Below are positions 23,705 to 33,660 of a DNA stretch of 34,460 nt, piece by piece; position 1 is the first letter of the stretch; each line of letters opens with the position of its first letter. A program made the position numbers and the translations under genes. The notes below the pieces were generated by a model. That model searched no databases. It had not been told where the DNA came from and saw only the letters and a program-made list of their open reading frames with translations. The stretch is from positions 1 to 34,460 of the forward strand of contig JAQTZZ010000042.1 in the NCBI GenBank assembly GCA_028687545.1, read 5' to 3'. Source of the stretch: Candidatus Wallbacteria bacterium (GTDB lineage: Bacteria > Muiribacteriota > JAQTZZ01).

Positions 23705-23754
23705 ATGGGGATAGGCCTTGACATTTAGGAACAAATGTCAAGGCCTGTCCCCAT
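23705..23754. repeat. 22-bp inverted repeat with 6-bp loop
   Basis: The arm 23705-23726 (ATGGGGATAGGCC then TTGACATTT) pairs with 23733-23754 at 21 of 22 positions. The element fills most of the 73-base gap between the MFS exporter and the secreted protein gene. It lacks a T run. The ATGGGGA start recurs in the palindromic site near 32203, so both may be dispersed palindromic units of this genome. A role as a bidirectional mRNA end or as a REP-like element is inference. Confidence 0.8.
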
Positions 23755-23771: not shown

Positions 23772-24575
23772 ATGAAAAAGTATTTCCTGACAGTGATTCT
23801 GGTGTGTTCGTTTTCTGCCATGGCAGGTCCGACAATAACCCTTGGCGATAATTTCGACCTGAAACCCCTTGGACAGCCGCCGATCGGCTGGGCTGCGGTC
23901 TGCGACGGAGACGGCAAGTGCGGGATATTCAGCGGAGAATACTATTCTGCACCCAACTGCTTCAGGATTGGTAATCTGGCGAACTGGGACGGTTGTTACA
24001 GTCACGCCCTGTCTGCAACAGGTGAAATCCTAGTGATAAACTTCAAGCTGAAAGGCCAGGCCAATGTCTGGTTCAGACCTTTTTTCAACGTGACTGTAGA
24101 CGGCAGGAGATACGGCGGAAGCTATGATGCTAAAAGCGGCCGGATCACCTGGGTGAATGGCGAGGCCTTGGTACAGGGATCGCATCTCAACGAATGCGTC
24201 TGGTATTCGGTCTCGATCATTGTCAACCGCACCACTGCTACTGCCAGTTATTATCTGAACGATGCCCTCGAGACTGTCGGTAATTCCTTCTGGACTCCTG
24301 GTGCAGCAGCCAACGGCGACTGTATTGCACTTGCTTCAGGGAGCGGTGGAGCAGGAGTGGTTTATTACGACGATCTGTATGTCTACCCAACCTGCCAGTA
24401 TGATTTCCAGAGCCAGGCTTCAGTTCAGGCCGGCTTCCAGGCTCCCCGCGAGTATAAAACAACTGTGGTGATCTTTCCCTGGGATCATCAAAGGCACGAA
24501 GATCATCACTGGAGCTGGGACTGGCGCTGGGACGACAGGCATGACAGGAGAGATGATCATCACGGACGGCACTAG
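23772..24575 (+). CDS. Secreted lectin-like beta-sandwich protein with His/Asp/Trp/Arg tail
   Basis: The ATG at 23772 follows AAGGAGGATTC; the frame is open earlier only through the inverted repeat. The 267-residue product begins with a signal peptide (MKKYFLTVILVCSFSAMA). The body, from DNFDLKPLGQPPIGW to VVYYDDLYVYP, resembles concanavalin-like/LamG jelly-roll domains by its DNF..P.G.PP.GW start and YYDDL ending; no catalytic residues are evident. The last 33 residues contain 8 His, 8 Asp, 5 Trp and 6 Arg, with pieces such as HHWSWDWRWDDRHD. This tail may bind metal or polymer. The TAG stop lies inside the 24571-24680 element. Family assignment is tentative. Confidence 0.65.
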   Translation: MKKYFLTVILVCSFSAMAGPTITLGDNFDLKPLGQPPIGWAAVCDGDGKCGIFSGEYYSAPNCFRIGNLANWDGCYSHALSATGEILVINFKLKGQANVWFRPFFNVTVDGRRYGGSYDAKSGRITWVNGEALVQGSHLNECVWYSVSIIVNRTTATASYYLNDALETVGNSFWTPGAAANGDCIALASGSGGAGVVYYDDLYVYPTCQYDFQSQASVQAGFQAPREYKTTVVIFPWDHQRHEDHHWSWDWRWDDRHDRRDDHHGRH

Positions 24576-24680
24576 TGATCCGTTACATTTGAATTTACCA
24601 ATCGCGATTTCGCGTAATGCTGCAGTAGCAGCATTTTCAAAGTTAACCATTATGAAATTCAAATGATACGGCGCACTAGT
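24571..24680. repeat. 110-bp inverted-repeat element spanning both converging gene ends
   Basis: The 26-base left arm 24571-24596 pairs with 24655-24680 at 22 of 26 positions, including ACTAGTG, CCGT and an 11-base perfect block CATTTGAATTT. Inside are two smaller hairpins: CGCG-ATTT-CGCG (24603-24614) and AATGCTGC-AGTA-GCAGCATT (about 24616-24635). The TAG of the + strand gene (24573-24575) and the TAG of the - strand gene (24676-24678) lie at symmetrical places in the two arms. It could be a MITE-like insertion or a bidirectional end-of-transcript structure. Confidence 0.8.
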
Positions 24681-26316
24681 ATTTCTGCAGCCCTTCGGGT
24701 ATAAAGGCTTTGGTGAAGTTCAGGAAACCATCGGCTGAGTTGGACAGCTGACGGATTCTCTTGTCGACAGCGACGATTTTCTCTTCCGAAAACAGGAAAA
24801 TCATCGGCTGGTCCTGATGCAGGATGGCGTGCAGCTGGTGACACAGTTTCTCCTGCACACTGCGGTCCGTGGACGAGCGGTATTCTTCGAGCAGCCTGTC
24901 CGCTTCAGGATTGCTGTAGCCGATAGTATTCAGCCCCTTCAGTTTCTTTTCCTTGTCCGGAATCATTGAAGAATGCCAGAAAGAATACGGATCGACGTGC
25001 GGGCCATAAAAAAAGCCCAACAGGGCCGCATCCAGCTGGCGGTTATTGAGACGGTCCGAGAAATCCCCCCATTCGAGACGTTCGATCCTGACATCCACAC
25101 CTATTTCCTGCAGGCATTTCTGGATCTGCAGGGCGACCAGGCGCCGGATCTCATTGCCGTTGTTGGTACTGATCGTGAAACTGAATCTGCGACCTTCACG
25201 CTCCAGAATTCCATCACTTGCCGGCCTGTAACCAGCCTGCGAAAGAAGCGTGACTGCTTCAGAAGTGGAATAGGGCCAGGGCATTATGCCACGGTCATAA
25301 GCCCAGTAGTCCGGCGGGAACGGACCGCTGATCTGTTTGCCGTAGCCGTACAGGACGTCGTCGATGATGGCCTGGCGATTCACGGCCATGGTCAGGGCGC
25401 GCCGCACCAGCCTGTCTGAAAAGAGCGGATTGTCCAGGTTGAATCCCAGGAAAGTATAATCCAGGGAGAAAAAACGCTGGATATTGTATCTGGTTTTGAA
25501 TTCGGTTTCATCAGCGTGCTTCAGGTACTGGTCCGGCGTCAGCCTGAGTATGTCGATGTCTCCCCTGAGGAGCCCGAGATACGCCATCGAAGGGTCAGGG
25601 ATGACAGTGCAGATGTAATTGTCGATGAAAGGCCTGCCTGTAAAATAATCGCTATTGGCCTTGAGAATGATTTTCTCCTGCGGGACCCATTCCACGAACC
25701 TGAACGGTCCTGTGCCGACTGGTTGCCTGTTGTAACTGGATTCCGCCAGATTTCCCCCCTGGTATAAATGCCTGGGCAGGATTTGAAACAGCCAGCATTT
25801 CAGATAGGAGGAAGTGATTTTCTTGTACCTGGCCCTGAGCGTGAACGGATCGATTATTTCAAGAGTATCGACTTCATCCAGAGTGGAGCTCAGGCCGATC
25901 GGGGTGACCGTATGCAGCAGCAAGTCATAGGTGAATTTCACGTCTTCAGCCGAAAAGGGCACACCGTCATGCCATTTTATCCCCTGATGCAGGTGGATGA
26001 TCAGCTCCCGGCTGTCCTGACCTTGTTCCCAGCTCTCGGCAAGATCGCCCTTGATCTGCAGTTTTTCGTCAAGGACCACCAGCGAATCGAACACCATTTC
26101 TATAATGCTGAGGGAAAACCTATCGTTGTACAGAAGCGGATTCAGAGTCATCGCATCTGCGATCGAGGAATCGACGATGGTGTCCCCGTAGGATGGCGAG
26201 TCGACGAATGATTCCATGGTATTCGCACTTGCCGGATGAGATGCAGGTTTACCTCCGCAGCCGGAAATGAACGCAAAGGACGTCAGTAAAAGCCAGGCTG
26301 CAGTTAACGTGCGCAT
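24676..26316 (-). CDS. Peptide ABC transporter substrate-binding lipoprotein (SBP family 5)
   Basis: The 546-residue protein has a lipoprotein signal (MRTLTAAWLLLTSFAFISGC, lipobox ISGC) and the OppA/DppA body: DAMTLNPLLYND, LAESWEQGQDSRELIIHL, IKWHDGVPFSAEDVKFTYD and RRALTMAVNRQAIIDDVLYG. Such proteins deliver oligopeptides, including murein peptides in some species, to an inner-membrane ABC permease. No permease or ATPase gene lies next to it. It is the only - strand gene in the window, and its stop codon lies in the inverted-repeat element. The C-terminus (FIPEGLQKY) looks natural, so truncation is not evident. Confidence 0.92.
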   Translation of the reverse strand: MRTLTAAWLLLTSFAFISGCGGKPASHPASANTMESFVDSPSYGDTIVDSSIADAMTLNPLLYNDRFSLSIIEMVFDSLVVLDEKLQIKGDLAESWEQGQDSRELIIHLHQGIKWHDGVPFSAEDVKFTYDLLLHTVTPIGLSSTLDEVDTLEIIDPFTLRARYKKITSSYLKCWLFQILPRHLYQGGNLAESSYNRQPVGTGPFRFVEWVPQEKIILKANSDYFTGRPFIDNYICTVIPDPSMAYLGLLRGDIDILRLTPDQYLKHADETEFKTRYNIQRFFSLDYTFLGFNLDNPLFSDRLVRRALTMAVNRQAIIDDVLYGYGKQISGPFPPDYWAYDRGIMPWPYSTSEAVTLLSQAGYRPASDGILEREGRRFSFTISTNNGNEIRRLVALQIQKCLQEIGVDVRIERLEWGDFSDRLNNRQLDAALLGFFYGPHVDPYSFWHSSMIPDKEKKLKGLNTIGYSNPEADRLLEEYRSSTDRSVQEKLCHQLHAILHQDQPMIFLFSEEKIVAVDKRIRQLSNSADGFLNFTKAFIPEGLQKY

Positions 26317-33443: not shown

Positions 33444-33463
33444 TTCTTAATAACTCGACTTTT

Positions 33464-33628
33464 GCAAATTTTCCATATCATGCCGCTGAAACCCTTGTGG
33501 GGTGGCCAGGCGTAACTTATTTCTCGATCTGAGCTTTGCGAAGGAGAGAAAAAGTTATGCCAGGACAGGACCCGCCACAAATCAAGGTTTTTTAAATAAA
33601 TATCTGGCTGCACACCATAAAAATTTGC
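33464..33628. repeat. Long imperfect inverted repeat in the epimerase-C1 gap
   Basis: Three paired blocks occur in the correct nested order: GCAAATTTT (33464-33472) with AAAATTTGC (33620-33628); AAACCCTTGTGG near 33489-33500 with CCACAAATCAAGGTTT (33575-33590); and CCAGGCGTAACTTATTTCTC (33506-33525) with 33544-33564 allowing a few mismatches. The apex loop is about 18 bases. It fills most of the 273-base gap. It may be a degenerate MITE or a structured transcript end; no open frame of note lies in it. Confidence 0.55.
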
Positions 33629-33660
33629 CAAACTCAATTTAATAAGTTGCATTTTCTGCT

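Follow-up and report, generated by a model that had tools for sequence, protein, structure and literature searches.

Two converging genes end in the arms of a long inverted repeat within the 34,460-nt stretch of DNA analyzed here (hereafter, the window), which raises the question of how the repeat came to lie there and whether its arrival altered either gene. The features of the locus are as follows.

23772–24575, + strand: converging gene of 267 aa, read from the ATG at 23772, with a His/Trp/Asp-rich C-terminus and no family match
24573–24574, no strand: left TA target duplication, which is also the TA of the + gene's TAG stop (element-junction table)
24575–24676, no strand: 102-bp core of the family A MITE, carrying no separate ORF, with TA on both sides and homologous copies elsewhere in the assembly
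24575–24596, + strand: left terminal inverted repeat, GTGATCCGTTACATTTGAATTT, with 1 mismatch to the family pattern
24603–24614, + strand: inner hairpin 1, CGCG-ATTT-CGCG (fold prediction)
24616–24635, + strand: inner hairpin 2, AATGCTGC-AGTA-GCAGCATT (fold prediction)
24655–24676, − strand: right terminal inverted repeat, GTGCGCCGTATCATTTGAATTT (sequence given for the − strand), with 1 mismatch to the family pattern
24677–24678, no strand: right TA target duplication, which also contributes to the − gene's TAG stop (element-junction table)
24676–26316, − strand: converging gene for a family 5 extracellular solute-binding protein (SBP_bac_5, PF00496) of 546 aa

Results

We examined the inverted repeat itself. 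The preliminary description had reported 26-nt arms at 24571–24596 and 24655–24680, each giving TAG to one of the genes, with two smaller hairpins between them, and all of this was confirmed: the arms are complementary at 22 of 26 positions (85%) with 58 nt between them, the + gene stops at 24573–24575 and the − gene at the complement of 24676–24678, and both inner hairpins are predicted on the + strand. The arm pair is the top inverted repeat of the whole window. Arms of 26 nt separated by 3–100 nt and mismatched at no more than 4 positions occurred once in the window and in none of 20 random sequences of window length (first-order Markov, with the window's dinucleotide content). The folding energy of the 106-base element was −35.8 kcal/mol on the + strand and −38.3 kcal/mol on the − strand (z = −6.3 and −6.4 against shuffles), and 0 of 200 shuffles folded as well on either strand. 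The mobile unit is 24575–24676, lying between the TA duplicates with terminal repeats of 22 bp each, and the outer AC/GT of the arms as first described are flank bases. In a listing of ORFs of 60 aa or more, none was confined to this core.

The same assembly (G000; 4.54 Mb in 108 contigs) was searched for further copies, and relatives were found, which supports the MITE-like reading that the preliminary description had offered. Beyond the window, family A was represented by copies on contigs C64 (86% identity), C6 (73%), and C17 (73%), a diverged partial copy on C39, and a short arm remnant on C60. The primary sequence of inner hairpin 1 is common to the C64 copy and is not found in those of C6, C17, and C39, and the family A consensus has a stem at the position of inner hairpin 2. 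The window copy is mutated at its ends on both sides (GTGATCCG / GTGCGCCG) and may therefore be immobile now. The arm pattern NAGTGGNCCGNNNCANNTNNNTTT, with at most 1 mismatch, matched the assembly 16 times, and the reversed control matched 0 times; all of these matches belonged to MITEs except C3:14592 (1 mismatch), which apparently lies within a gene and outside any element.

Two further families were recovered in the same assembly. Family B (core 272–275 bp; 6 full copies and 1 fragment, with a mean column identity of 95%) was found via the arm pattern and has the same outer repeat as family A, GTGGTCCG..ACA.TT.AATTT. Family C (core 268–269 bp; 5 full copies), which has other ends (GAACCCATTTCATAAG), was found through a 51-nt inner stretch of family B; this stretch is common to both families at approximately 90% identity (L073–L077, L066) despite their different ends, suggesting that inner parts were exchanged or that the two families have an inner module in common. 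At C3:153457–153514, a 48-bp family C core consists of hardly more than the two arms.

Converging genes often have a hairpin between them, and on that ground the repeat could be taken for a palindrome that arose by chance or for an ordinary terminator, in neither case of mobile origin. The dispersed copies already refute this, and the TA duplications and the absence of such arms from all 20 random sequences count against it as well; we regard it as virtually inconceivable. The feature at 24575–24676 is short and non-coding, has terminal inverted repeats, dispersed copies, and a target site duplication, and, judged from its sequence, is a MITE that forms a new family within a known kind of element.

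We tabulated the target sites of 16 elements (5 of family A, 6 of B, and 5 of C). TA was present on both sides in 15 of them, the exception being the C39 copy (CA/TG), and the targets of these 15 were all YTAR, comprising CTAG in 7, TTAG in 5, and CTAA in 3. Because the window outside the element contains 1217 TA sites, among which 171 are YTAR and 14 CTAG, this preference is strong: with the window TA sites as background, the chance probability was 1.6e-13 for 15 of 15 YTAR and 1.6e-10 for at least 7 of 15 CTAG. CTAG is rare in the window, with 16 occurrences against 132 expected from base composition. Additionally, the junction 4-mers differed between the two sides in 8 of the 15 TA-flanked copies, indicating that the duplication is 2 bp (TA) and not YTAR, with a 4-bp duplication excluded for those copies; on the same count, the element departs from an IS5-type MITE with a 4-bp YTAR duplication, such as MITEPsy1. 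On contig C6, a family B copy abuts a family A copy with one TA in common, as expected if one had inserted into the target duplication of the other.

A second palindromic repeat lies at 33446–33646 of the window, with 27-nt arms (81% complementary) and 147 nt between them. A stretch 78% identical to it occurs at approximately 1339–1503 of locus L089, on the C8 contig, directly left of a family C element that seems to have inserted at the edge of that stretch. The repeat at 33446–33646 is probably a further short mobile family.

The preliminary description had proposed that the insertion rewrote both gene ends. An insertion inside one or both genes would have truncated or extended them, and their present C-termini would then be products of the insertion. 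In line with this, the final base of a TAG stop comes from the terminal repeat on either side, and to the left of the C6 and C16 elements ORFs of at least 100 codons continue into the element, although that of C16 may be spurious. Against it stands the predicted empty site, obtained by joining the flanks at TA (CGGACGGCAC-TA-GTATTTCTGCAG): without the 104 bp, ...GGACGGCAC-TAG-TATTTCTGCAG... reads ...CAC-TAG-TAT..., in which the TAG stops of the + and − genes, both in frame, lie in one CTAG as a 4-bp tail-to-tail overlap. A stop codon was found at the junction in 5 of the 16 elements, giving 6 stops (C42 on both sides, C17, C8 of family B, C14, and C24), and all 6 persist in frame in the predicted empty sites, that of C24 as TAA. 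Moreover, the − protein ends in ...LQKY, and 12 of 12 aligned relatives without the element (10 from its own genome and 2 from G001, chosen among the matches listed) end 0–4 residues away, so the end of the − gene was not rewritten. Similarly, RibD adjoining the C17 copy matches TIGR00326 up to profile position 341 of 343. That the present C-termini were created by the insertion is thus highly improbable, and the proposed rewriting finds no support in either the empty site or the relatives.

How the stops were kept follows from the junctions. TA is duplicated, and the first and last bases of the core are G and C, so that CTAG is restored at either junction and neither gene loses its stop. As far as the junction sequences indicate, the insertion probably made use of a stop codon common to the two converging genes and rebuilt it, and the element probably sits at the gene ends without having changed either protein. 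Contact with a stop was seen in 5 of the 15 TA-flanked elements, against 7 of the 58 YTAR sites of the window that are non-disruptive (P approximately 0.03). This count left out the C39 copy, which lacks the TA pair, as well as the fragment on C86, the arm on C60, and the mini copy of 48 bp on C3. The preference for stop codons is a hint only, as the null was drawn from one hand-picked gene list in one window.

Regarding the two genes, the family of the solute-binding protein encoded by the − gene is greatly expanded, with 36 matches in this genome, counting the protein itself, versus 1–12 in the 38 further phylum genomes searched. The + gene had no homologue in the other 38 of the 39 phylum genomes, no protein family match, and no solved structural relative. 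Part of its His/Trp tail had been suspected to derive from the insertion; this found no support, in that the tail lies outside the target duplication and has internal repeats of its own. The His/Trp/Asp-rich tail (24480–24572) contains a tandem repeat of 12 nt as well as a repeat of 24 nt (75%), and these may reflect growth by internal duplication. In BLAST against the fetched loci, its own locus was the sole match.

Upstream of the + gene, between it and a transporter gene, 23705–23754 holds a 22-nt palindrome, ATGGGGATAGGCCTTGACATTT (95%, 6-nt loop), whose arm had no second place among the fetched loci and which, by eye, we take to be REP-like.

We then considered whether the hairpin has a role of its own, as a bidirectional terminator or an RNase III-processed 3' element selected for its hairpin whatever its origin; the preliminary description had likewise raised a dual terminator or RNase-protected element. 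A strong hairpin on both strands exactly between converging genes fits such a role, and there are precedents in Correia elements, on which RNase III acts (PMC10969869; PMC2649163). Conversely, no T-run terminator was found inside the element (two sites were called in 24300–24950, both outside it), and some of the other copies lie elsewhere than between converging genes. There is also little sign of selection for pairing: two positions per arm (TA vs AT) are unpaired alike in 4 of 5 family A copies, and 4 of 31 pairs in the family A consensus show two-sided pair-keeping changes, three of these four in the diverged C39 copy. In family A, conservation of the repeats largely accounts for the pairing, which fits ends conserved for a transposase better than a selected RNA structure. 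Selection for the hairpin as the explanation of the element is unlikely in our judgment, whereas a role in 3'-end processing, by analogy with Correia elements, is possible. Neither a sigma-70-like promoter in the element nor an outward promoter in the region was called.

The source of the element was sought in several collections. Pfam DDE_3 and DDE_Tnp_1 had 0 matches each in the assembly, from whose 108 contigs multi-copy IS may be missing. Across the phylum, 20 DDE_3 (IS630-type) loci were present in 9 of 39 genomes, none of them with matching paired ends. The search for an empty site or related DNA matched 1 of 95 genomes, namely the element's own, and none of the 94 others. The end AGTGGTCCGNNACANTTNAATTT was found in 2 stretches among 84,980 species genomes, both without inverted repeats, and these look like chance matches in coding DNA. 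In viral contigs, the A/B end occurred in 0 stretches and the C end in 5, none with a second end; plasmids gave short, weak BLAST matches only (E approximately 6). Rfam returned microRNA models below threshold (E = 0.54 and 0.68), which we rejected as chance matches to a palindrome. Literature searches, judged by titles and the openings of abstracts, turned up no description of these elements or of MITEs splitting overlapping stops at CTAG.

Discussion

Taken together, the locus is very probably explained by mobilization in trans of a non-autonomous MITE: a transposase that duplicates TA and prefers YTAR, CTAG above all, would have moved it into a CTAG shared by two genes whose stops were kept. 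Going by the predicted empty site, the converging genes would once have ended in this one CTAG, with a TAG on each strand. The transposase acting in trans, with its preference for palindromic YTAR and above all CTAG, would have placed the element in the TA of the CTAG and duplicated that TA. The element's terminal G and C would then have restored CTAG at each junction, leaving stops and protein ends unchanged, and a 4-bp overlap would have become a 100-bp spacer able to fold into a hairpin on either strand. A further-reaching proposal is that the transposase steers these MITEs to YTAR and into stop codons, including overlapping convergent ones, with proteins unaltered, and that the hairpin subsequently persists as a 3'-end element that works in both directions and separates the transcripts. 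We consider it decidedly unlikely in this full form. The repeats, copies, TA duplication, YTAR preference, and junction stops can be read from the DNA; the empty site, the transposase in trans, and any 3'-end role of the hairpin are inferred from them.

When the target is YTAR and its TA is duplicated, an insertion that strikes a TAG or TAA stop rebuilds that stop at the junction, which gives a mobile element a simple and harmless way of landing at a gene end. In a genome where CTAG is rare, such insertions can leave genes that overlapped tail to tail separated by a hairpin-bearing spacer. In addition, the elements mark past transposition in a lineage whose assembly gave no matching transposase (DDE_3, DDE_Tnp_1). 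By analogy with known systems, the mover would most likely be an IS630-like or IS5/IS427-like transposase.

Tenzen and Ohtsubo reportedly found in 1991 that IS630 prefers TA within 5'-CTAG-3'. The 2-bp TA duplication and the CTAG preference seen here agree with a MITE driven by IS630/Tc1/mariner, whereas ends matching those of the element were absent from the 20 IS630-type loci of the phylum. RUP of Streptococcus pneumoniae is a MITE of 107 bp that has TA targets and is attributed to IS630-Spn1 (PMC2229807), and ISY100 of the IS630 family likewise duplicates TA (PMC2170065). IS630/Tc1/mariner MITEs of the RUP kind resemble our element in size (approximately 100 bp), terminal inverted repeats, and TA target, but in our case no DDE_3 was found in the element's own assembly and no DDE_3 locus with these ends in the phylum.

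MITEPsy1 of Pseudomonas syringae is 100 nt long with 18-nt repeats, IS5-type ends, CTAG or YTAA targets, and a 4-nt duplication (PMC3189936). It is similar to the present element in its size of approximately 100 nt and in having CTAG among its targets, but its duplication is 4 nt rather than the 2 nt seen here, and its terminal repeat differs. Correia/NEMIS elements of Neisseria are approximately 107 or 155 bp long, with 24-bp repeats, TA ends, and hairpin transcripts (PMC2229807). They share the size of approximately 100 bp, the terminal repeats, and the TA ends with the window element and differ in that no outward promoter was called here. We also take their tip, TAGTGG, to be similar to that of our element.

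A parallel for the stop codons comes from IS870, a member of the IS5/IS427 group. Fournier et al. reportedly found in 1993 that IS870 requires 5'-CTAG-3' as its target and that a stop codon thereby arises at the element's edge. In IS870, the target ends the element's own ORF, whereas here it ends the host genes, and the MITE carries no ORF.
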